In this document: piece after piece, positions 4,606 to 29,134 of the stretch | Layout: each line of letters opens with the position of its first letter | Position numbering within the stretch: position 1 is the first letter of the stretch | Virus record (IMG/VR): IMGVR_UViG_3300023180_000272 | Location: 1 to 30,280 of that record | Source of the DNA: a virus | DNA length: 30,280 bases | Reading direction: 5' to 3' (one strand) | Translations under genes and position numbers: made by a program | Notes under the pieces: generated by a model | Database searches by the model: none | Told to the model about the DNA's origin: nothing | Seen by the model: the letters and a program-made list of their open reading frames with translations, nothing else

Positions 4606-5552
4606 ACGTCAATCAACTCCCCGCGAAACGCTATCTTATCGCCATAAACGTGGGCTAATTCAGGCGGCAGCAATTTCCCATCCTTGAACGTAAGAACAGC
4701 AAACCCCGATTGCCAATCCGTTGGGTTGTCTTCGGTGTAATTCACAAACTGAGGCCCGAAGTTATCCGCCAACGTACCACACTCAACGCCATACCTTACA
4801 CCATTATAATCATGGAACGGCCTCACTAAAAGCCTATGCACATGACCCGTGACAATGGTTTTCCCTGATTTTACGACATTATTAAATGCGGCATGTTCCC
4901 CGCCCTTATATCTGTGCTTTATAATTACCTCGTCATTGATCCACACAGACCAACAAGGCGCAAAGTCCGGGAAGTGGTCTTGCAAATGAACGCCCCGAAC
5001 CTTTTCAAATTCACTCGCAACCGTAGCTAATCGCGTTTCAAACCGCGCGTCATGGTTTCCAAGCGGCCACATAAAATCAGCATCAGGAGCGGCTCTTTTG
5101 ATTTCGTTCAACCTCTTGCGAACGGTTTCTAATTCGTCATGTACTGACGGCACATCTTCCCAACCGATCTTAGGATGGCGGGATATACTCGCCCCGTCAA
5201 ACTCATCCCCGTTTTTTATAACAATTCGAGGTTTTAGTTTCTTACATAAGACCACAAAGCCCTTATGCGCCGGAGTAATAAGGTCCGGCCAATAGTGTGA
5301 ATCAGACCCTACAAGGACAACACCATTCTCTATCGTGGCCTGTATTCTTTGTGGATATTCTGTGGGGATGCAGATTTCTGATAAATCAGACTTTTCTTGA
5401 GGGGAGGGGAGTTTAACCCCCAATCTTTCCTCGATCTTTCGCCGCCGCCTGTATACACTTCGCACAGAACAATCTAACTGCTCAGACGTTCTTGCGGGGC
5501 CGATTGTCGTAATTAGTTCAATAAAACGCTTTTCATCACACTTGGCCTTCAT
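4602..5552 (-). CDS. Metallophosphoesterase with N-terminal HTH
   Basis: 316 residues, ATG 5552 with GGAG seven bases upstream. Residues 7-45 form a helix-turn-helix (ELITTIGPARTSEQL followed by CSVRSVYRRRRKIEERLG). Residues 78-300 are a calcineurin-like phosphoesterase with two-metal motifs: GSDSH (82-86), KNGDEFDGASISRH (113-126), PLGNHDARFETR (163-174) and TGHVHR (235-240). The family hydrolyses phosphomonoesters or diesters, including nucleotides or nucleic acid. The attached HTH points to a DNA substrate or autoregulation. It lies between small genes of the lysis region with overlap at its end. The domain calls are firm; the substrate is unknown. Confidence 0.85.
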   Translation of the reverse strand: MKAKCDEKRFIELITTIGPARTSEQLDCSVRSVYRRRRKIEERLGVKLPSPQEKSDLSEICIPTEYPQRIQATIENGVVLVGSDSHYWPDLITPAHKGFVVLCKKLKPRIVIKNGDEFDGASISRHPKIGWEDVPSVHDELETVRKRLNEIKRAAPDADFMWPLGNHDARFETRLATVASEFEKVRGVHLQDHFPDFAPCWSVWINDEVIIKHRYKGGEHAAFNNVVKSGKTIVTGHVHRLLVRPFHDYNGVRYGVECGTLADNFGPQFVNYTEDNPTDWQSGFAVLTFKDGKLLPPELAHVYGDKIAFRGELIDV

Positions 5553-18314: not shown

Positions 18315-18328
18315 AAGCCTTACGGCTT
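18315..18328 (-). other. GNRA hairpin at coat-gene stop
   Basis: AAGCC, GUAA, GGCUU (leftward RNA, 18328-18315) gives a 5-bp stem with a GUAA tetraloop that includes bases of the coat stop codon. It stacks just upstream of the UUCG terminator and may protect the coat mRNA 3' end. Confidence 0.4.
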
Positions 18329-19541
18329 AGTTAAGCCCCAAGCGGCAAGCCAACTCAGGCCGGATTGCTTTGTAGCCGTATAGAACATCAATACGGCAAG
18401 GCAGCTTGTCGTTGTTGATGTCGTAATCACGAACGATCCGCATCGAAATGCCGTCCATGACCTCACGGGCGCAAAAATCAACACCCTTCGGCTTAACCAA
18501 GTCGGCGGTAGCAAACGCGAACGCATCTTTATGGAAGCCCATAGAGATTTTATAGTCCGCTGCGTTTCCAATAGCCGTCGAGTTGTCGGATTCGCGCTTG
18601 TAGATCGCGCCGCCGTTGGTCGGTGATGCGGAGACGTTTTGAGTCGCCCCCGAAGTCACGATTGATGGGCTGATCGAAACGCTCGTATCCGTTGCCGACA
18701 TATCCGCAGTTACGACGAACTGCATCAATACGCCGGTATCGGCTTTGGTTTCGGGATGGACGCGATTACAACCGACAAAGCTGATAATATCGCCCTTCTT
18801 AAACGTACCCGAACCCTCCGAGCCGTGGTTGATGGTTGCGCCGGTTTGATCGGCGGAGCTAACCAAATGATCGCCCGTGCCGTCATCCGTTCCCGTGGTG
18901 TGGATCGGCCAAAGCGTATTTTGATACACACTGGAAAAGCCCAGGAAGTCGTTAGCAACCATGCCTTCACGGTATTGCTTGCTGATTTTCGCCGGATCAT
19001 TAAACAGACCGGAGACAGCGGATACCAAATCGGCGTTAGCCTGAGTATCCATGTTTAAGCAACGCTGTGAAGTCGGCGTCAGGTTGTCGGTGAGACGTTT
19101 CGCCGTGTTAAGAACAAGCGCCAACGAGGCAGACGCACCAACGTCTGAAATCTCGTTGTAAACGTCCTTATACATCGACATAGCGTCCGATTCGATGTTT
19201 GCAGCCAAAACGCTCATGGCGGGCTCAAGGATGCGATCCGAGAAGTCGTCCAAGTCAAGCGTCAACTCGGCGGAGGTGAAATTAACATCCACGCCCTTTT
19301 GAGTCGCCACTTGCAGCGTTGTGCTGGTTTCTGCGGTGTCTTGTGCGTTGATCGTCGCGCCGCTACGAACCGTGTATTGATTCGGAAGGCGGATTTTCAA
19401 GCTATCACCGATTTTTGCGCCCGATTGCGCGAAGCTCGAATCGTATTGCCGGTTGATGTTGCCGACAAAGTTTAGCTTTTGGTGCAGAATACGCAAAGCC
19501 TCTCGCGTCACTGCGGTGGGAGTGAGAATGGTATTAGCCAT
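18327..19541 (-). CDS. Major capsid protein, P22 coat family
   Basis: 404 residues, ATG 19541 with AAGGA upstream. The N-terminal ILTPTAVTREALRILHQKLN (about 4-23) and VGNINRQYDSSFAQSGAKIGD (given in part) followed by LKIRLPNQYTVRSG are the standard opening of P22-type coat proteins (HK97 fold). LDLDDFSDRILEPAMSVLA (about 104-122) is the spine-helix region, and the insertion-like middle and C-terminal VRDYDINNDKLPCRIDVLYG agree. Length is near P22 gp5 (430). It follows the scaffold gene directly, the conserved head-gene order. Expression is probably high, consistent with the strong terminator right behind it. Confidence 0.9.
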   Translation of the reverse strand: MANTILTPTAVTREALRILHQKLNFVGNINRQYDSSFAQSGAKIGDSLKIRLPNQYTVRSGATINAQDTAETSTTLQVATQKGVDVNFTSAELTLDLDDFSDRILEPAMSVLAANIESDAMSMYKDVYNEISDVGASASLALVLNTAKRLTDNLTPTSQRCLNMDTQANADLVSAVSGLFNDPAKISKQYREGMVANDFLGFSSVYQNTLWPIHTTGTDDGTGDHLVSSADQTGATINHGSEGSGTFKKGDIISFVGCNRVHPETKADTGVLMQFVVTADMSATDTSVSISPSIVTSGATQNVSASPTNGGAIYKRESDNSTAIGNAADYKISMGFHKDAFAFATADLVKPKGVDFCAREVMDGISMRIVRDYDINNDKLPCRIDVLYGYKAIRPELACRLGLN

Positions 19542-19588: not shown

Positions 19589-20521
19589 CTATCGTCCGGC
19601 CCTTTTCGATATTTGTGCATTGCGCCTACGCAACCACTCATCAGAAGACATCTTTTCAGCGTCCTTGATAATATCCTTGGCTGCGGTGGCCTTGCCTTTG
19701 GGCTTGATTGCCTTAACGGGCTTGGCTTGCGCGGGTTTAGGTTTGGGCTTAGAAACCCCGGCTTGAGCGCGGTCATAAAGCATTGCCTTATGGGCCATTT
19801 CAGTGAAGACGGGATTCAGCGACCAATTACCAGCATCAGCTTCATTGATACCGGCCTTAATCGCGTAGTCTACAACTTCCTTTTCGTTGAAGCCCTTGAT
19901 TCGGCGCTCGATAAGTTGCCTACCCTCTTCCTTGCGCCGAGAGATTTCATCCTCTTGCGCTTTGGTTAGGGCTTGCTCGCTTTGAGCGACCTTATTAACA
20001 ATACTTTGGAATTCAGCCTGCTTTGCCGATAACGCATCACTAACACGGCGGGCCTGGTCCGGGTCGGACTGCCACAACTCGTTTAGATCAACGCTCGAAA
20101 GCTGCTCAATTTCCGCTTTAACTCTCAAGCCATGTGAATAGTTTTCCAGCGATTCGCCTTGCAAGCTCTCAAACTTCTCGACTGCGCTTTCACGCGCTTC
20201 GATAGTTTTAGCCCGCTCGGATAAATCCTGCTTTCCCTTGGTGTAGTCGGACCAAGTGCCGTCTGAGAACTTCTGGATAGCCTCTTTTAGTTCCTCGGGA
20301 ACAGCGCCCTTCGGAATTTCGACCTTATTGCCACCGAAGTTGAACTCATCAACCTCGATTTCTTCCTCGTCCTCTTCTTCGGACTCATCCTCAGATTCAT
20401 CATCGGACTCGTCCACCTCGTCAGCTTCATCAGCCTCAACCTCTTCGGCCTCAACCTCCTCAGCTTCTTCGGTTTCTACTTCTTCAACTTCCCCCTCGGG
20501 GACGGTTGCATCTTCTGCCAT
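19589..20521 (-). CDS. Capsid scaffolding protein
   Basis: 310 residues from ATG 20521, set by GGAG six bases upstream; an earlier ATG (20533) has no site. The first 65 residues are almost entirely Glu/Asp/Val/Ala with Ser (for example EEVETEEAEEVEAEEVEAD). A helical, charged core follows (AKTIEARESAVEKFESLQ, QEDEISRRKEEGRQLIERR) and the C-terminus is a basic helix-rich segment (SSDEWLRRRNAQISKRAG) like the coat-binding helix-turn-helix of P22 scaffold (303 residues). Position between portal and coat fits exactly. The extreme acidic head may keep it soluble and speed its exit from the procapsid. Confidence 0.8.
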   Translation of the reverse strand: MAEDATVPEGEVEEVETEEAEEVEAEEVEADEADEVDESDDESEDESEEEDEEEIEVDEFNFGGNKVEIPKGAVPEELKEAIQKFSDGTWSDYTKGKQDLSERAKTIEARESAVEKFESLQGESLENYSHGLRVKAEIEQLSSVDLNELWQSDPDQARRVSDALSAKQAEFQSIVNKVAQSEQALTKAQEDEISRRKEEGRQLIERRIKGFNEKEVVDYAIKAGINEADAGNWSLNPVFTEMAHKAMLYDRAQAGVSKPKPKPAQAKPVKAIKPKGKATAAKDIIKDAEKMSSDEWLRRRNAQISKRAGR

Positions 20522-20637
20522 TTTTTGCTCCATCTATGGGAACGGGGCGCAATCTCTGCGCTCCTACCCCTCAAGTCCTGTCTTTCAACCGACTGTTAGG
20601 GCGATGACCCTGCTACGCTGCCGCGCTCAGAGAATCT

Positions 20638-22788
20638 CTAAATATCTATATCCCTGTCATCCGGGGGGCCGTAAGCTTCTTCGTTGGGATATTCAGCGTT
20701 TGTTATTTCATACGCGGTCTTAACCGCTTCATTCTCTTGGTCAACAAGGTCAACGTCAGCATTATGTTCAGCAATGGCTTCTTTTAAATCCATATCTCTC
20801 TCAGACACCGCAACCTTGCGTTCCTCTAAATCCAAGCGCCTCGCATCATTAGCAGCTCTGGCCTGCGTCTCTTGCGTCTTATCATTAACCGCCTGCTCGG
20901 ACTGCTGCAATCTGCCTATCAACTCCTGCATTTGCTGTTGCATTTGTTGAACCTGTTGCTGAGATTGTGCCAAGGCCATCTTTGCCTCTGGCGGCATTGC
21001 ATCACCATCATTCTCCGCGTCCCTTACGGCCTGCGGTAGAAGCATCTGCAAGCGTTTAGAAACCTTATCAGCGCCCTGGAAATCCATGTGCTCCATGAGA
21101 ACGTCACCGATATATTGGGCGGAGTCAGGAATATTCCGCATAATCTCAATCAATGCTTCACGGGTTTCCTCTCGCTGAGTCGCGAATGACGGCCCCGTTG
21201 ATACCGTTACGTCATACCGCCCAACCGACAAGTTGTAGAGCTTATCCTGCCCGTTAATGCCTTCATCATCAGCCCCGCCCGCCTCTTGGGTTAGCTGAAC
21301 CACTTCTTCCTTCATATCTTCGCCAAGAATACGGATGGATTCGCGCGGGGAATACACCGAGGGGATAATCTCAACCAGAACCCGCCCGGCGTATTGAATA
21401 GCGCGGGCAAGGTTATCGATGAAATGGAAGTTGGAAACGTCACCTTGACGCTCTCTAGCAAGAATCGCCTTGCCGGATGTTTCGTTTGACCGAGCACCAA
21501 TAGAGGACGGGTAAATGCCCATAATGTCCTGCATGTCTTCAGCGGCGTTCATGGCCTCTTGCAATGCGCCCGCAGGAACACCGGCGAAGGGCTGCCGCTG
21601 CGGCATATTAGAACCCTTGGCATACTCAAGATAAGGATGGGAACGGGTATTAGCCGTTTGCCACTTAGCTTCCTTACCTTTAGGAATAGCGCCTTCTTCA
21701 ACAACCCAAGGCGCTCTTGGTGCCAATGCAACCAATTCCGTACTAGCAGACCGCCAGAAGTTTGTCATTTGTTGCGGGTCTTTAGCGTCCCGAATCATCG
21801 ACCGGAAATGCCTGCGTCCATCCGAATAAACCTCCTCACCCCAAACAGGGCAAATCGGGATTGTCGAACCCGGCCAGTCTTCTTCTTCTAAAACATCAGC
21901 GCCCGAAATAACCCGGCGCTTAACCTCGTGATACGCAGCTTCACGGCGGCGCACTTCCGATAAACCTTGTTCCGCCATAAACCAGCGAATCAGTTCTTCC
22001 TCGGCCCCCGCAAATTCCTTGCCCAAGTCTTCAAGGAACCGCTTTGCTATGTTAAAAAGGTTATCTTCACGAACAACCCTTCCGTCCGATAATTGGATAA
22101 TAGTGCGCTTATTCTCTTCGCGGGTCCAATACTCAGCAACCCGAACTTGTTCATTATCAAGCCAATTCTCAGTTAAGGCCTCGTCCTCGCCTTCAAAGTC
22201 AACAGCGTCAGCGCCGGGATATGTTTTTTCATACTCATCCAGCCGCACCATTTCAGACACGAAGGCATAATCCCAATCGGAAGCGTCGAATTCAGTTGAA
22301 CTCGTGTCCCAATGGACCATTAAAGGATTAGGAATCCGGTTTATCTGCGCTTCTAAGTCAAACGAATCAGGGTGAGCGTAGTCAATATCAATCCGAAAGA
22401 ACCCGAAGCCACCCGTAACTGAATGGTCAATAGCCGTATCGTAAGCAACCTCGGCGTTGCTCTTGCGCTCGACAGACCGGACCAAACCGCCGATAACCTC
22501 AGCAGTTTTAACGTCAGCCCCGTTATCTACAGGGGAAACTTTAATCGCAGGCTTGTTCTGCCTCGATTCATTAACAACTTGGCGAATGTACGCAGGCAGC
22601 CGGTTAATCGTTAAAAAGGGGCGGCCTTCCTCTTTCCGTATCTTTGCAATATCGTCCGGCCATTGGTCAGACAACCGAGCAAAGCGAATATCATCCTCTG
22701 CCGCCTGCCGGTTAAACTCTGAGCCGTCTTGAGACTCCTTGAACTTCTCAAGGGCCTCTTTCAGAATGGGATCAGATGTTTCGGGCAT
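20638..22788 (-). CDS. Portal protein, P22 gp1-like
   Basis: 716 residues from ATG 22788 (a TTG precedes it). Portal dodecamers form the DNA gate of the head. The N-terminal EFNRQAAEDDIRFARLSDQW, the strongly conserved GRPFLTINRLPAYIRQVVNE (about 55-74), the next motif NKPAIKVSPVDNGAD, and HSVTGGFGFFRIDIDY are P22-type. The last 130 residues are Gln/Glu/Arg coiled coil (QQQVQQMQQQMQELIGRLQQ, given in part), corresponding to the P22 barrel helix. Length is almost that of P22 gp1 (725). The gene overlaps the preceding 60-residue gene by 17 bases. Confidence 0.9.
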   Translation of the reverse strand: MPETSDPILKEALEKFKESQDGSEFNRQAAEDDIRFARLSDQWPDDIAKIRKEEGRPFLTINRLPAYIRQVVNESRQNKPAIKVSPVDNGADVKTAEVIGGLVRSVERKSNAEVAYDTAIDHSVTGGFGFFRIDIDYAHPDSFDLEAQINRIPNPLMVHWDTSSTEFDASDWDYAFVSEMVRLDEYEKTYPGADAVDFEGEDEALTENWLDNEQVRVAEYWTREENKRTIIQLSDGRVVREDNLFNIAKRFLEDLGKEFAGAEEELIRWFMAEQGLSEVRRREAAYHEVKRRVISGADVLEEEDWPGSTIPICPVWGEEVYSDGRRHFRSMIRDAKDPQQMTNFWRSASTELVALAPRAPWVVEEGAIPKGKEAKWQTANTRSHPYLEYAKGSNMPQRQPFAGVPAGALQEAMNAAEDMQDIMGIYPSSIGARSNETSGKAILARERQGDVSNFHFIDNLARAIQYAGRVLVEIIPSVYSPRESIRILGEDMKEEVVQLTQEAGGADDEGINGQDKLYNLSVGRYDVTVSTGPSFATQREETREALIEIMRNIPDSAQYIGDVLMEHMDFQGADKVSKRLQMLLPQAVRDAENDGDAMPPEAKMALAQSQQQVQQMQQQMQELIGRLQQSEQAVNDKTQETQARAANDARRLDLEERKVAVSERDMDLKEAIAEHNADVDLVDQENEAVKTAYEITNAEYPNEEAYGPPDDRDIDI

Positions 22789-22954
22789 CAAAAACCATCG
22801 GTAGTGGTTGGTGCGGCCTTAATACTTGCATACGGCCCGTTCGTTTATACTGGTCCAATTCTTTCCTAACATCATCAATGTCGCGGCTTTTTGCGATTTC
22901 CCGCAAGTTCTGTGCCGCCTCTGTGAATCCTAATTGCTCGTATAACTGTTTCAT
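22772..22954 (-). CDS. Small helical protein before portal
   Basis: 60 residues, ATG 22954 with GGATG-type site. Helical, charged (YEQLGFTEAAQNLREIAKSR, then VRKELDQYKRTGRM) with a Pro-rich end. Not recognised. Overlap with the portal gene suggests coupling and a head-assembly role. Confidence 0.55.
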   Translation of the reverse strand: MKQLYEQLGFTEAAQNLREIAKSRDIDDVRKELDQYKRTGRMQVLRPHQPLPMVFDARNI

Positions 22955-23478: not shown

Positions 23479-24732
23479 TTAAGCCATCCAACCGCCCTCA
23501 GCGGGCATATCTATATGAACCTCGGCCTGTTTAGACCGGTTAATTTGTGGAAATAATTCAGTAAAACCCCATACTAATGCGTCAACACGGTCAGGCGAAC
23601 CTTCACCTTCAAACCCCGCTGCCGTCATTTGACACATCTGATCTTCTAACTTAGAAAACGTCCCTATATGGCTTATCCGGCCAAGCGCATACAAAGCACT
23701 AATCGGTTCCGCTCTAACGTGCTTGCCGCGAGTTGCGCGAACCTCGATTATCGGTAAGCCGGGCCGGACACTCTCTAACGTATGCCTAACCATATCACCG
23801 CCCTGGTTGACCTCAATCACAACGGCGTCAGCTTCTAAGCGGTCATACAAAGCAACAGCCCTGTCAGCCCATTGCCTCGGGGAACCCTTCATTGATACAT
23901 CATCAACGACATAGCCCCGATTATCGGCACCAAGCGCACAAGCTATAATACCGTGCTCATCTGAGTTTTCTTCGCTCGATACGGCGGGATCAACAGAGAC
24001 AACGATCCTCTCTAGTTCAGGTGCTTCTTTTCTACGTAGGTCGTTGATCGTCTGTCGATCCCAAATCGCGCCCACAGCCATCGGCTCATATTCACCAAGC
24101 CAAACATGGGCATATCTATCAGGATTGTGCTGCTTATCGTGTAATCGCTCCGCCTCTAATTCAGCGGGGAACCTTAAATTCTGGTCGTAGTTTATTTTCC
24201 GTATGATTGCATCTTCAGGCGGACTTTCACCCCTAAAGAACTTATCAACTGAATCGCTGGCTAACCTCGGATTCCATGAGAACCATAGTTCCGAACCCGG
24301 TGCGCGAATAGTAGGCCGCAGCATCTCTAAGGAACGAGAGGAAAGCGTCTGACCTTCCTCAACCCAGGCAATATTAAACCCCTCAAGTGACTTGATTGAC
24401 TCAGCAGTATGGTCCTGCATACCCTGAAAGATGATAACGCCATTCCCAGGCGTTACGATCCTGTCAGCCTGAACATCAAAGAAATTAGAGAACCCTAACT
24501 GCGCTATCTTGTCCTCTAAGAGCCGCTTGGCCGATTCCTTTAGGCTCTTTTGAACCTCGCGAATACAGACAGCACGAAAGCCAGTGTTTAACTTAGCGTT
24601 GGCCGCCATTGCCTCAGCGAAGAAATGTGACTTGCCCGAACCACGCCCGCCATAGAGCGCCTTATATCGTGATGGTTTAAGTAGATCGTTAAAAACGGGG
24701 CTTGCCGCCCCTATTCTTGCGACGTTCCCCAT
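23479..24732 (-). CDS. terL: Terminase large subunit
   Basis: 417 residues, ATG 24732 overlapping the small-subunit gene by 22 bases. ATPase motor: Walker A GGRGSGKS (28-35), Walker B with catalytic acid IAWVEEG (121-127), and the coupling motif near SWNP (about 152-155). Nuclease (RNase H fold): VVSVDPAVS with Asp248, AVVIEVNQGG with Glu307, and PDRVDALVWG with Asp384. This is a PBSX-type (Terminase_3) large subunit, shorter than P22 gp2 (499). It packages DNA into the portal; the nuclease makes the cut. Confidence 0.92.
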   Translation of the reverse strand: MGNVARIGAASPVFNDLLKPSRYKALYGGRGSGKSHFFAEAMAANAKLNTGFRAVCIREVQKSLKESAKRLLEDKIAQLGFSNFFDVQADRIVTPGNGVIIFQGMQDHTAESIKSLEGFNIAWVEEGQTLSSRSLEMLRPTIRAPGSELWFSWNPRLASDSVDKFFRGESPPEDAIIRKINYDQNLRFPAELEAERLHDKQHNPDRYAHVWLGEYEPMAVGAIWDRQTINDLRRKEAPELERIVVSVDPAVSSEENSDEHGIIACALGADNRGYVVDDVSMKGSPRQWADRAVALYDRLEADAVVIEVNQGGDMVRHTLESVRPGLPIIEVRATRGKHVRAEPISALYALGRISHIGTFSKLEDQMCQMTAAGFEGEGSPDRVDALVWGFTELFPQINRSKQAEVHIDMPAEGGWMA

Positions 24733-25061
24733 AAAATAATTGGGCCGCCGTTTTCTCCAACCAATTCCCTTCGGTCAACCTCTTTCCAACCCATTTGAGT
24801 CTTGGCCCAAAAGATAGCTGCCGTAGTGTCACCGTTTATAGCCTTATTGAATAACGTGCCGCCAATCTTTGCGTTAGCCTTAATCTTAGCCGTATCTAAT
24901 TCCTTACGGAAATGCTTGCGAAGCGTCTTATCGTCAATACCGTCACGGACAACCTTGCAAACAGATTCCTGGGGGATACCCACCGCCGTCATCTGCTCGA
25001 CCAACTTACGCTCTTCCTCAGTTGGCTTAAATGAGGGCTTTGTTACCATTTTAGGCGGCAT
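24711..25061 (-). CDS. terS: Terminase small subunit-like DNA-binding protein
   Basis: 116 residues from ATG 25061, overlapping the methyltransferase stop; ATG 25049 is an alternative. It opens with a helical DNA-binding region (EERKLVEQMTAVGIPQESVC, about 16-35), then a second helix (DDKTLRKHFRKELDTAKIKA) typical of small-terminase helix-turn-helix, and IGGTLFNKAINGDTTAAIFW, a recurrent small-subunit motif. The C-terminus (GPIILWGTSQE) may contact the large subunit. It recognises the packaging site and stimulates the large subunit. Coupled to terL. Confidence 0.75.
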   Translation of the reverse strand: MPPKMVTKPSFKPTEEERKLVEQMTAVGIPQESVCKVVRDGIDDKTLRKHFRKELDTAKIKANAKIGGTLFNKAINGDTTAAIFWAKTQMGWKEVDRRELVGENGGPIILWGTSQE

Positions 25062-26310
25062 CTGCTTTTATAGTGGGGAATTTCTCTCCACTACCCTCTA
25101 AAACAGCCTGTTCACCAGTAAAATCCTGCCAGCGTTTAATAATTACATCGCAATAGGGCGGATGTAACTCTAATCCGTGGCAACTTCGCCCGGTCATTTC
25201 CGCGGCAATAATGGTCGTTCCTGATCCCAAAAACGGATCATAAACCGCTTGGCCGGGGCTCGAATTATTCTCAATGGGGCGCCTCATGCACTCGACGGGC
25301 TTCTGGGTGCTGTGGCCAGTCTCTGATTTCATGGGCTTGTCGATGTCCCAGACCGTTGTTTGCTTGCGCCCCCCGCAGTAATGGCCTTTTTTGTTCTTTC
25401 TTACGGCATACCAGCAGGGCTCATGCTTCGGGTGATAATCCCCGCGGCCTATAACTATATTACTCTTCACCCAAATGATCTGCGCCCGGATATTAAGACC
25501 GCAAGAAATCAGGCCATCAGCAACAATATTTGCCATATTTCCAGCATGCCACACGTAAGCCACGTCACCAGGGAATAGCGCCCAAGCATCTCGCCAGTCT
25601 GACTTATTATCATTCTGCACCACGCCTACGGCGCGTGCGCCGTTGGGCTTGCCATTGGCCCTATCCATTCGATTCCGCCAATCCGCATCATACTCAACCC
25701 CATATGGCGGGTCTGTAACCATTAAATGAGGCTCTACGCCGCCTAAACAAGCCGACACAGCGCCTTCGTCGGTAGAATCCCCGCAAACCAGCCTATGCTT
25801 ACCCAATAGCCACACATCGCCCAATTTTGTTACCGGGTCTTCGGGCGTTTCAGGCACTTCATCAGGATCGGTTAAACCATCATTCTTATCAAGCAAGCCC
25901 GCGATTTCACTCTCGCCAAAGCCTATCAGGCTTAAGTCAAAGTCCATCTCAGCTAAAGCGCCTAATTCAAGGCTTAGTAACTCAGTATCCCATCCCGCAT
26001 TCTCAGCTAGTTTATTATCCGCGAGGATATAAGCCTTTCTCTGCGCTTCCGATAAATAGGCCAACTCAATGCAGGGAACATTGGTTAGCCCAAGCTGCCT
26101 TGCAGCAAGGATTCGACCATGGCCAGCAACCACTCCGCCATCCCCGTCAATAAGGACCGGATTCGTCCAGCCAAATTCCTTAATGCTTGCGGCTATTTGC
26201 GCCACTTGTTCGTCTGTATGGGTCCGGGCATTGTTTACATATGGGACAAGGCTGTTAATCTCTCTATTCTCAATGTTTAGACCGGATATAGGTGGGCGAC
26301 CAGCTGGCAT
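25051..26310 (-). CDS. ParB-like/DNA methyltransferase fusion (beta class)
   Basis: 419 residues from ATG 26310, with GGAGGA just upstream; an earlier ATG at 26325 is less likely. Residues about 13-105 are a ParB/Srx-like domain (NARTHTDEQVAQIAASIKEF, VVAGHGRILAARQLG, KAYILADNKLAE). Residues about 165-410 are an amino-methyltransferase with motif IV DPPY (200-203) first and motif I DPFLGSGTT (358-366) last, the beta order of N6-adenine or N4-cytosine enzymes, and TQKPVE (about 335-340). It likely methylates phage DNA, protecting it from restriction or marking packaging or replication state. It is the first gene after the leftward promoter-terminator module and ahead of the terminase genes. 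Confidence 0.88.
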   Translation of the reverse strand: MPAGRPPISGLNIENREINSLVPYVNNARTHTDEQVAQIAASIKEFGWTNPVLIDGDGGVVAGHGRILAARQLGLTNVPCIELAYLSEAQRKAYILADNKLAENAGWDTELLSLELGALAEMDFDLSLIGFGESEIAGLLDKNDGLTDPDEVPETPEDPVTKLGDVWLLGKHRLVCGDSTDEGAVSACLGGVEPHLMVTDPPYGVEYDADWRNRMDRANGKPNGARAVGVVQNDNKSDWRDAWALFPGDVAYVWHAGNMANIVADGLISCGLNIRAQIIWVKSNIVIGRGDYHPKHEPCWYAVRKNKKGHYCGGRKQTTVWDIDKPMKSETGHSTQKPVECMRRPIENNSSPGQAVYDPFLGSGTTIIAAEMTGRSCHGLELHPPYCDVIIKRWQDFTGEQAVLEGSGEKFPTIKADAA

Positions 26311-26348
26311 AAATCCTCCGTGCATTCCTGAATGGCGATGCGGGTAAT

Positions 26349-26379
26349 AAAAAACGCCTCGCGGATTCCTCCGGGGCGC
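26349..26379 (-). terminator. Intrinsic terminator immediately after late promoter
   Basis: Leftward RNA begins a hairpin at 26378: outer CGCC with GGCG (26358-26355), inner CGGA with UCCG around a GGAA (GNRA) loop, with a 1/3-base bulge between, then six U (26354-26349). The predicted start of the promoter just upstream (near 26391) would give a transcript of about 42 bases ending here. It lies about 40 bases before the methyltransferase ATG, so late genes need read-through or another promoter. Confidence 0.7.
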
Positions 26380-26388
26380 AAATAATAG

Positions 26389-26427
26389 ATTATAGCGATT
26401 ATACTCTAACTATTTCGCGTCTGTCAA
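26389..26427 (-). promoter_or_regulatory. Consensus sigma70 promoter with second -10-like element
   Basis: TTGACA (26427-26422), 18-base spacer, TATAAT (26403-26398), both hexamers perfect. A second TATAAT (26394-26389) falls across the expected start near 26391. It is the position where lambdoid P_R' has a -10-like sigma70 pause element used by the Q antiterminator. It lies in the gap behind the DUF6456-like gene (stop 26435) and points into the terminator at 26379-26349 and the late genes. Confidence 0.75.
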
Positions 26428-26434
26428 CCCCTTA

Positions 26435-26941
26435 TTATTTATATCCATAAGACGCAGCTAAAAGAGGTAATGCCTTCAAAAGAACCCTTTTCGCGCGGTC
26501 CTTGGGAACCCTGCATTGATACAGCGGTTTATCTTCACCAATAACCTCGATGATAACAGGCGTAGCTATCTGCCCAACAGCGGCATAAGCAGCATTTAGA
26601 CGCTTTCTAGCCCGTTCTTTCAGGTGTCCCAATGATTCCACATCCGCCGACCCCCTGCCGCCATCAACGTAAACCATTGAACTAGATGAATATTTTGGCT
26701 GTCTATTGTATGTGATAAAATCAGAATGAAAGTTTCTCGCGGCGTTTACGTCTTTTTTCCCTATTGTCCCGGCTAAGAACCATTTTTCCAGCAAACCAAG
26801 GATACGCGCTCGGTGAATACCGGCCCTCATCGTTTCCTCGATCATCACTAAGGAGCCATCTGACCGCCGCGCCAGTGTTCCTTTACCTACGGCCATAATG
26901 GCCTTTATGTCTAACGCGCCAAAATCAGAGTGTTCACTCAC
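26435..26941 (-). CDS. DUF6456-like protein, candidate late antiterminator
   Basis: 168 residues from GTG 26941. GGAGG lies six bases upstream and the GTG overlaps the previous TGA (GTGAGTGA); an ATG 33 bases further upstream lacks a site. The C-terminal 120 residues resemble DUF6456 of alphaproteobacteria: AARNFHSDFITYNRQPKYSS (given in part), SLGHLKERARKRLNAAYAAVG, TPVIIEVIGEDKPL, then RVPKDRAKRVLLKALPLLAASYG. The N-terminal part (ALDIKAIMAVGKGTLARRSD) is unassigned. The gene ends eight bases before the -35 box of the promoter, the place of Q in lambdoid phages. Family call moderate; antiterminator role is inference from position. Confidence 0.65.
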   Translation of the reverse strand: MSEHSDFGALDIKAIMAVGKGTLARRSDGSLVMIEETMRAGIHRARILGLLEKWFLAGTIGKKDVNAARNFHSDFITYNRQPKYSSSSMVYVDGGRGSADVESLGHLKERARKRLNAAYAAVGQIATPVIIEVIGEDKPLYQCRVPKDRAKRVLLKALPLLAASYGYK

Positions 26942-27113
26942 TAAGCGCCTCCAGTATCTTACGGGCTGTTTCAATATCTGAATCGAATATATATTGATCC
27001 TTAAATTGTATAGGCTTCATACCAACCTTGCCGCGTGTTGCGTTTATCTGCTCGGCGCGGTTGTTAGCAATGATCTGCGCTACCAATTGGGTTTGCTCTA
27101 TCATTTTAGACAT
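26934..27113 (-). CDS. Small hypothetical protein (59 aa)
   Basis: ATG 27113 to TGA 26936-26934, 59 residues beginning MSKMIEQTQLVAQIIANNRA and ending EALSE, with a middle stretch (KVGMKPIQFKDQYIFDSDIE). It is supported by tight overlaps with neighbours at both ends and by the ribosome site GGAGG for the next gene being placed in its end. Predicted helical; no family recognised. Overlaps the small membrane gene's stop by 13 bases. Confidence 0.55.
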   Translation of the reverse strand: MSKMIEQTQLVAQIIANNRAEQINATRGKVGMKPIQFKDQYIFDSDIETARKILEALSE

Positions 27114-27253
27114 TCTTCACCCTGTTCATCAATGAATTGACAGTGAAGCGCGTTTCTTTCTCTCTCATACGCCTTTCTAACCTTAATTTCACGGTCAAGC
27201 ATGGAATACAAGAACACGCAAAAAACGGTTACAATGAAAGCGTATATTTTCAA
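27101..27253 (-). CDS. Small membrane protein (50 aa)
   Basis: TTG 27253 overlaps the DnaA-like gene stop (TTGA), with GGGCGGG upstream. The 50-residue product has one N-terminal hydrophobic segment (KIYAFIVTVFCVFLYSML) followed by a charged tail (DREIKVRKAYERERNALHCQ) and ends in GEECLK. Its place inside an otherwise gapless operon supports it as a gene. Unknown function. Confidence 0.5.
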   Translation of the reverse strand: MKIYAFIVTVFCVFLYSMLDREIKVRKAYERERNALHCQFIDEQGEECLK

Positions 27254-27627
27254 TACACCCGCCCGTCATACATCTCATCAAGTTTCTTAATCGCGCCGGG
27301 AATATAGCCATAATCAACGGGACGCACTTGTTTATCGGCCTTAACTGCGGTATAAAATCGGGCAGTATAAAGCGGCGGCAATCCGCGCCTTTTCCTGTTG
27401 TAATTATCAGCTTTTTCGTATTGCCGGTGCGAATGTGTTATAGCGGATTCCCCTCGATTAAAAATCTCAGCTAAACTTTTAATGGAAACTTTGGTATCCT
27501 TAACACAAAGCCATATAGCATATTGACGGGGTTTAATAAACCTCTGACTTCGGCTTGAAACCAAATCATCCATCGAAATATTAAATTCTTCACAAACCCT
27601 TTTAAGTATCTCAAAAACTTCTTTCAT
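27250..27627 (-). CDS. Orphan DnaA domain IV-like DNA-binding protein
   Basis: 125 residues from ATG 27627 with GAGGA six bases upstream, two bases after the helicase stop. Residues about 2-75 resemble the C-terminal DNA-binding domain of DnaA: an N-terminal helix pair (VFEILKRVCEEFNISMDDLV), SSRSQRFIKPRQYAIWLC, and the helix-turn-helix SIKSLAEIFNRGESAITHSH followed by RQYEKAD, matching the DnaA signature region only loosely. The AAA+ and DnaB-loading domains are absent. The C-terminal 45 residues are unassigned. It may bind DnaA boxes to regulate host or phage replication, or load the nearby helicase. The domain call is moderate. Confidence 0.68.
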   Translation of the reverse strand: MKEVFEILKRVCEEFNISMDDLVSSRSQRFIKPRQYAIWLCVKDTKVSIKSLAEIFNRGESAITHSHRQYEKADNYNRKRRGLPPLYTARFYTAVKADKQVRPVDYGYIPGAIKKLDEMYDGRVY

Positions 27628-27628
27628 A

Positions 27629-29134
27629 TTATTCCTCATAATCCTGTTTAAAATCAACTGACCGATAACGCCCTGTTTTTAATTCAAAATCCATATTTAA
27701 CATACAGGGATAACCAAGTTCTTCAAACCGCGCTTTCCTGTGGTAAAATTCCGCCTCTGTTTGCCGTTCCCCATCCTTAAAAACACTTGGCCGGTGAACC
27801 GCAAAGCCTTGATCTGGTCTATTCTCCCAATGCTGTGAGCCATGAATATCGGACAAAGCGGGCGCATCCTTGCGAAATTGCTTTTCACCCTTCGACGGAT
27901 GAGCGATAACCTGAATATGCATATTTAACCCTCTGGCGGCGTCCATAAGGTCATCAATACATTCACCAATCCAATCTGTTTCTGTTTTATCCCTTGGCTT
28001 CTGAGTGTCTAATTTGTTCCAAGGGTCAATAACAACCGCCCGGCAATTAAACCTAGCGTGAGCCGCTTCAATCATATCCAGGAGCCAACCAAATGTCGGC
28101 CTAGCGTTTGGATGTGAAATAAACTTAACGTTTTCCTCTGTCCAATCGTCGGCGGTTTTGATCTGCTGCTCCGTTAGTTCATCCTCATACTTACCAAACA
28201 TCCAGCGCCGAAAATTACGCCGATGATGAGGCTTAACCCTTGTTTCCGCCGAAAATACAGCAAAGCTAAAATCATAAGATTTTGCCATTTGATACCATAA
28301 CTGCATCATTAACATAGTTTTACCGTGACCCGGCCAGCCAGTAGCGACGGAAAACATTTTAGGTGAAAATTTAACCTTGTTTTCCCATTCATAAAAACCC
28401 GGATTCCACAACTCCATTGGTTCCGGTTCGGGGATTTCGGATAAGGAATACAAACCAATGACCGGGCAAGGTATTGATTTATTTAAAACAAAATCTAGTA
28501 AGCGTTCCGGCCCGTACTGCATTAAATGTTCATTCGCGTCCTTGTCGGGCCAATTTATATACGAACATTTAACAGTTCCAAGGATTTCTGCTAAATCTTC
28601 CCTTAAATTATCGCCCTTTTCATCAGAATCGACGGCTAAAATGAATTTCTTAACATCGTTCAACCCTTCATCTAAGGCAGAATATACATACTGATACTTG
28701 GCTGAATTTTCCTTATCGGCTACTCGCTCAGGAGGCGCACCATTAGGAACGCTCAGTACTTGGTTTTTAGGCACCCCACACTCAATTAAGCTTAAAGCGT
28801 CCATCTCCCCCTCAGTAATATACACAACGTCCCTAGACCCCCTTAAAACGGCTTCTAGGCCATAAAAACACTGCTCCCCGCCTTTTTTCTGTTTATATAG
28901 CTTTTCATCAAAAGCCCTAGCCTTGTAATTAACAACCAGACCATCACGGTAATAATTAAAAATCGCCGCTTCGGTCTTAATGTCACCAAATACCGCCATA
29001 CCGCTGCCGACGCCCATTTCCTTGAGTGTTTTCTCGCCGATTCCCCTGTCTTTGAACCATTCCAGGGCTTTCGCTGTAAGTTTTAAACCCGAATTTCCAT
29101 TCGCAGTGGAAGCATTTTCCAACGGCTCCGTCAT
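27629..29134 (-). CDS. Toprim-DnaB-like primase/helicase (helicase part)
   Basis: 501 residues if started at ATG 29134, which has no ribosome site. True homology to primase-helicases begins at LKLTAKALEWFKDRGIGEKT, about 18 residues in. A Toprim domain follows (VYITEGEMDALSL about 105-117, FILAVDSDEKGD about 164-175) and a RecA-fold hexameric helicase with Walker A GWPGHGKT (about 266-273), Walker B AVVIDPWNKLD (about 367-377) and IQVIAHPSKGEK (about 407-418). This is T7 gp4/Twinkle architecture minus the zinc domain. The zinc ribbon is encoded just upstream in another frame, so the two may be one protein joined by a +1 shift. It unwinds the fork and may prime. Confidence 0.88.
   Translation of the reverse strand: MTEPLENASTANGNSGLKLTAKALEWFKDRGIGEKTLKEMGVGSGMAVFGDIKTEAAIFNYYRDGLVVNYKARAFDEKLYKQKKGGEQCFYGLEAVLRGSRDVVYITEGEMDALSLIECGVPKNQVLSVPNGAPPERVADKENSAKYQYVYSALDEGLNDVKKFILAVDSDEKGDNLREDLAEILGTVKCSYINWPDKDANEHLMQYGPERLLDFVLNKSIPCPVIGLYSLSEIPEPEPMELWNPGFYEWENKVKFSPKMFSVATGWPGHGKTMLMMQLWYQMAKSYDFSFAVFSAETRVKPHHRRNFRRWMFGKYEDELTEQQIKTADDWTEENVKFISHPNARPTFGWLLDMIEAAHARFNCRAVVIDPWNKLDTQKPRDKTETDWIGECIDDLMDAARGLNMHIQVIAHPSKGEKQFRKDAPALSDIHGSQHWENRPDQGFAVHRPSVFKDGERQTEAEFYHRKARFEELGYPCMLNMDFELKTGRYRSVDFKQDYEE

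Follow-up and report, generated by a model that had tools for sequence, protein, structure and literature searches.

The window, a 30,280-base virus contig from IMG/VR (IMGVR_UViG_3300023180_000272), raises the question of what is controlled by a consensus promoter that fires into a terminator between the early and the late genes, and whether the DUF6456-like gene directly in front of it takes part in this control. The contig probably represents an uncultured tailed phage of alphaproteobacteria, the host being suggested by the closest relatives of its terminase large subunit (TerL) in cellular genomes, which are mostly alphaproteobacterial prophages. On the minus strand, the early side comprises a DnaD-like helicase loader, a primase-helicase, a DnaA-domain gene and the DUF6456-like gene, followed by the promoter and terminator. 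The first gene past this putative switch encodes a fusion of ParB_N and N6_N4 methyltransferase domains (25051–26325, minus strand), and is followed on the same strand by the terminase small subunit TerS (24711–25061), TerL (23479–24732) and the late-operon genes for the portal (20638–22791), the scaffold (19589–20533) and the major head protein (18327–19541). The gene order described in the first-pass annotation, with the DUF6456-like gene upstream and the methyltransferase, terminase and head genes downstream, is therefore correct, and the promoter-terminator unit sits exactly at the early/late boundary.

Read on the minus strand from the stop codon of the DUF6456-like gene, the sequence runs TAATAAGGGG TTGACA GACGCGAAATAGTTAGAG TATAAT CGC TATAAT CTATTATTT GCGCCCCGGAGGAATCCGCGAGGCG TTTTTT. 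It contains a putative late promoter of the P_R' type, with a -35 element (TTGACA, 26427–26422) that begins 7 bases past the stop codon and a -10 element (TATAAT, 26403–26398) separated from it by a spacer of 18 bases. All 12 hexamer positions match the consensus, and such 12/12 sites are expected 0.010 times per dinucleotide-shuffled whole window on both strands, which bears out the leftward sigma70 promoter claimed previously; over the whole minus strand, no other site reaches at least 10 of 12 matches. The promoter is followed by an intrinsic terminator resembling t_R' (26379–26349, minus strand), which consists of a hairpin (26379–26354, -14.3 kcal/mol) and six T residues (26354–26349). 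Counted from the predicted start (26391), the first base of the hairpin is at about +13, as the first-pass annotation had placed it (about 12 bases past the start), and the RNA is predicted to end near +40. The hairpin is by itself unexceptional, as its folding energy is only modestly better than that of shuffled sequences (z -1.7; 13 of 200 shuffles equally good), so that the case is made by the combination of promoter and terminator, its place and the comparisons given below.

Two further -10-like hexamers lie on the minus strand around the start, TATAAT (26394–26389; spanning about -3 to +3 around the predicted start), a possible sigma-pause element, and TATTAT (26387–26382; +5 to +10). The pause element of lambda P_R' is located at about +1 to +6; the second TATAAT, which had been likened to it, is indeed present in the start region but sits a few bases upstream of the exact lambda position, with which the TATTAT does not coincide either. 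A sigma pause at one of these repeats is possible, while -10-like elements in the initial transcribed region are not consistent among the relatives. A further, strong intrinsic terminator is located directly past the major head protein gene (18313–18286, minus strand; -19.3 kcal/mol, T7) and, being inside the late operon, would be a second place needing read-through.

The gene in front of the promoter (26435–26941, minus strand) encodes a protein of 168 amino acids, which is proposed as the antiterminator from Pfam, HMM, hhalign and AlphaFold comparisons. The DUF6456 match claimed for it is present (PF20057; E 4.2e-5, 24.1 bits), slightly under the Pfam cut-off of 26.3, and is its sole Pfam match at E up to 1, none of the antiterminator Q models giving a match. 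DUF6456 is the annotation name of GafA relatives (Sherlock & Fogg 2022, PMC9638019), and in alphaproteobacterial genomes the same model scores as high as 218 bits against genes of the GafZ/GafA type. The proposal of a new antiterminator family must accordingly be withdrawn, as DUF6456 is the GafZ/GafA family. An HMM of GafZ/GafA proteins built without the window protein retrieved this protein at E 1.5e-3 and that of the viral relative L123 at 5e-6 (20,526 ORFs, first iteration). By hhalign, seven phage proteins encoded at this position (gene Z) gave an alignment of 122 columns to 14 GafZ/GafA proteins (probability 97.4, E 1.5e-11), a result that supports the group more than the window protein alone, as the phage profile takes in the window protein together with clear DUF6456 members. 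Searches with the window protein gave no match in INPHARED phages, only a near-identical copy (L002) in IMG/VR and nothing useful in PHROGs and NCBIfam, and a PDB sequence search gave no match for gene Z. PHROG 21451 and PHROG 31762 match the protein of the relative L272, and the former also matches that of L123.

About 310 bases upstream of the GafZ-like gene lies a gene that the first-pass annotation passed over (27250–27657, minus strand). It encodes a GafY-like protein of 135 amino acids with the helix-turn-helix of DnaA domain IV (Pfam Bac_DnaA_C, PF08299; E 4e-13), for which a search of IMG/VR gave no match. As GafA corresponds to two separate proteins in Caulobacter, GafY forming one half of it and GafZ the other (Tran & Le 2024, PMC11150451), this DnaA-domain gene completes a GafYZ-like pair, and a GafY-like gene also accompanies gene Z in L123, L161, L271, L272, L276 and L278. 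Two small possible ORFs (26942–27250, minus strand) part the two genes in the window, in contrast to Caulobacter, where the pair is adjacent.

The comparison loci were gathered by similarity of the methyltransferase, TerL or gene Z. A search for the same arrangement behind DUF6456-like genes, as proposed in the first-pass annotation, found it behind the gene at this position in several related phages and prophages, one of which carries a clear DUF6456 gene. In this contig (L272/L273), the DUF6456 gene (L272, E 1.6e-11, above the Pfam cut-off) is accompanied by a GafY-like gene (8e-16), and 41 bases past the DUF6456 stop codon lies TTGACG-GCCCAGCCGCTGGGTGA-TAGGGT with a spacer of 17, followed by a terminator of -22 kcal/mol and then the late genes. 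The unit also occurs behind gene Z in L007, L161/L285, L164, L165 (a prophage of Roseococcus pinisoli) and L277–L279. L007, in which the methyltransferase is 65% identical to that of the window and a truncated gene retains a similar C-terminus, carries TTGACA-16-TATTGT and, at about +1 to +6, TATAAA; its terminator near the methyltransferase gene has the core CCGGAGCAATCC, similar to CCGGAGGAATCC of the window. TTGACA overlaps the stop codon of gene Z in L164 and L161 and starts 2–6 bases past it in L165 and L277–L279. Of 14 gene-Z loci, several of which were picked after the promoter was known, 7 carry TTGAC[AG] at most 8 bases from the stop codon of gene Z, compared with 2.2% of 6,759 ORF stops; the count is 4 of 8 with relatives collapsed and 2 of 5 groups among the blind-fetched loci (p ~0.005).

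Closely related loci show that the unit is kept as a block. L161 and L285, whose gene-Z products are 94% identical, share the -35 element, the start region and the terminator nearly base for base, while the spacer varies and the DNA diverges past the T run. In L276 an extra gene is inserted behind gene Z and the unit is nevertheless kept, with TTGACA, a spacer palindrome (CCACG-N6-CGTGG) and the terminator shared with L278/L279; the -35 element, spacer palindrome and terminator are common to L276–L279. The late-leader terminators of the window, L007, L105, L161 and L276–L279 have a common CCGGAG core with varying stems. By a strict scan, about 14 of about 225 further loci have the unit close to the late operon, compared with 4 loci when the reverse strand was scanned, and it is thus recurrent, not general: most TerL relatives have no such unit, TerS directly follows gene Z in L123 and L271 (clear DUF6456 gene), and the unit of L272 is not conserved in the intergenic region of L282. 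The PF20057 model matched only one further record, L123, among 50 TerL- or methyltransferase-related viral records, so that in most relatives the slot is taken by a different or a more diverged gene.

The slot may indeed hold unrelated families, as the gene-Z products of L165, L168 and L098, considered as GafZ relatives, gave no match in profile comparison and are used here for position only. In L165, L168, L098 and L276–L279, proteins of about 150–165 amino acids without a GafZ profile match precede promoter-terminator units, and those of L165, L168 and L278 have no convincing Pfam or PHROG match; they possibly constitute another unrecognised antiterminator family. A further unit in L105 (about 5078–5180) lies behind an ORF that does not appear GafZ-like, its C-terminus appearing helix-turn-helix-like by eye.

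The structures predicted by AlphaFold for the proteins of the window (pLDDT 69, pTM 0.62; ordered core 46–79 and 100–168) and L272 (74 and 0.65, respectively) are helical, and in both a flexible loop joins long helix 2 to long helix 3. The top PDB matches of the window model are Q21 (6p1a, Z 6.8; 6p18, 6.0) and sigma-28 (6.3), together with other sigma region 4 domains and AlpA (5.4), while the L272 model matches sigma region 4 first (up to 7.7) and Q21 thereafter (6.5–6.0), the Q21 alignment spanning its ordered length and extending beyond the helix-turn-helix alone. As Z scores below 8 can reflect common helical arrangements, this likeness to Q21 and sigma region 4 is a hint only. Foldseek against the PDB alone gave no match at E <0.001, and the second match in BFVD is a phage protein named DUF6456. 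The 21Q protein is in itself a sigma-region-4-like domain with its first helix as a cap, and a loop-helix-loop of it makes up the ring inside the exit channel (PMC6606751); the structure of AlpA resembles 21Q (PMC9371919). GafZ was described as having no structural similarity to known antiterminators (PMC11150451).

Caulobacter GafZ is needed for terminator read-through, including that of a foreign terminator, is associated with NusA, NusG, NusE and RNA polymerase (RNAP), and requires a palindrome between the -35 and -10 elements (Tran & Le 2024, PMC11150451). The window resembles the Caulobacter crescentus GTA with GafYZ and Rhodobacter capsulatus with GafA in pairing a DUF6456-type with a DnaA-domain-IV protein, and would, as read from its gene order, likewise have the pair control a phage-type structural cluster. 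Its genes differ from the GTA genes in belonging to a phage, its promoter is at full consensus while that of the Caulobacter GTA (CcGTA) is weak and GafY/IHF-dependent, and its terminator lies at most about 40 bases from the start, whereas that of CcGTA follows the first gene. The spacer in the window also lacks the GafZ-type palindrome of CcGTA, the best arm of any inverted repeat being 2 bases. Only a single GTA promoter is known to have the GafZ element, so the missing palindrome lowers the probability of family membership without excluding it. Among the relatives, the spacer of L272 contains a palindrome of 6+6 bases (CCCAGC-C-GCTGGG; shuffle P 0.02) and is the only one that clearly beats shuffles in this test, which is weak for GC-rich spacers; the spacer palindromes of L168 and L276–L279 are not clearly above chance.

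With lambda Q/P_R'/t_R' and the Q system of phage 21, the window shares a putative antiterminator gene at the early/late boundary, a strong promoter directly behind it, a promoter-proximal intrinsic terminator and the late genes downstream, and its protein is predicted to have a fold weakly similar to that of phage 21 Q. It differs from both in that no Pfam sequence relation to the Q families and no Q binding element were found, direct repeats in the spacer as candidates for the latter having been inspected by eye only. The lambda t_R' terminator lies much farther from the P_R' start than the terminator of the window does from its own. AlpA of Pseudomonas aeruginosa is a helix-turn-helix antiterminator with its element between -35 and -10, whose terminators begin 26–54 bases past the start (PMC7969949); it is a host regulator and not a phage Q, and no sequence relation to it was found. 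In Sinorhizobium phage phiLM21, a DnaA-domain gene (gp33) similarly adjoins an annotated antiterminator (gp34) at the early/late boundary. The gp34 protein is of the NusG/UpxY type and was rejected as a GafZ; in this phage (L280; NC_029046, 17000–24000), another family of antiterminator occupies the same slot.

Promoter, terminator, gene order, family relation and recurrence, all of which are seen directly in the sequence, are probably best explained by a late switch of the phage GafYZ type with lambda-like P_R'/t_R' logic, in which the GafZ-like protein would act as antiterminator in the role of Q, much as the Q proteins of lambda and phage 21 do and as AlpA does. We infer from the comparison that the strong sigma-70 promoter directly past the GafZ-like gene would fire constitutively and that RNA polymerase would halt at the intrinsic terminator about 40 bases on, giving a short RNA and leaving the late operon silent. 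As the early operon is expressed, the GafZ-like protein would accumulate, perhaps aided by the GafY-like DnaA-domain protein, load onto polymerase at the promoter (26427–26398) and travel with it. The modified polymerase would then pass the leader terminator and later ones and transcribe the methyltransferase, terminase, head and tail genes. The Q-type antitermination logic suggested by the first-pass annotation is well supported by comparison, as the unit recurs and the GTA member GafZ is an antiterminator with experimental support.

The terminator might instead merely insulate the early from the late operon, with the late genes fed by leaky read-through and no antiterminator involved, which we consider improbable. 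Inter-operon terminators are common, the hairpin of the window is moderate (-14.3 kcal/mol) and several relatives lack the unit; however, the promoter lies upstream and not downstream of the terminator and is the sole consensus promoter on its strand, the order of gene Z, -35, -10 and terminator recurs in relatives as a conserved block, and the adjoining gene probably belongs to an antiterminator family. Less probable still is that the terminator is incidental and that the GafY/GafZ-like pair mainly activates initiation, as proposed for Rhodobacter GafA, which binds the omega subunit of RNAP and activates GTA promoters (PMC9638019), and in keeping with the recruitment of RNAP through RpoD by GafY (PMC11150451). 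The full-consensus promoter of the window should need no activator, in contrast to the weak CcGTA promoter (AATCAT, TATCTTT), and a terminator about 13 bases past the start demands read-through.

It is very unlikely that the terminated transcript of about 40 bases serves as a regulatory small RNA. A small RNA gene would likewise show a terminator immediately behind a strong promoter, but an Rfam search gave no credible match, the RNA sequence is not conserved between phage groups except for the CCGGAG-type terminator motifs, and the place before the late operon fits read-through. The least probable of these explanations is a role of the DUF6456-like gene in replication or packaging, with its place before the promoter due to chance; the gene does follow replication genes and the family match of the window protein is weak, against which stand the GafZ profile match and the recurrence of the unit behind gene Z.

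The GafYZ-type late switch, if present as read here from sequence, would combine a GafYZ-type pair in a phage with a lambda-like promoter-terminator unit, a combination that appears to be new as far as the literature surveyed shows. It suggests a phage Q-like protein as the ancestor of the GTA regulator, so that GTAs would have inherited their control protein from phages. It is plausible, though somewhat short of probable, that GafZ-type proteins are a widespread, unannotated Q class in phages of alphaproteobacteria, which act at P_R'/t_R' units of their own and share with Q21 a sigma-region-4 fold with a flexible nozzle loop, and that GafZ and GafA were domesticated from such late antiterminators. 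If the switch proposed for the window is real, the ancestral role of the GTA regulator GafZ would be that of a phage Q protein, and the unannotated phage families PHROG 21451 and PHROG 31762 would gain a likely function. The compact cassette of promoter, terminator and protein would isolate antitermination by GafZ, as its consensus promoter should need no activator, and the hint from the predicted fold bears on the question of Tran & Le whether GafZ may act as a nozzle like Q21 and AlpA.
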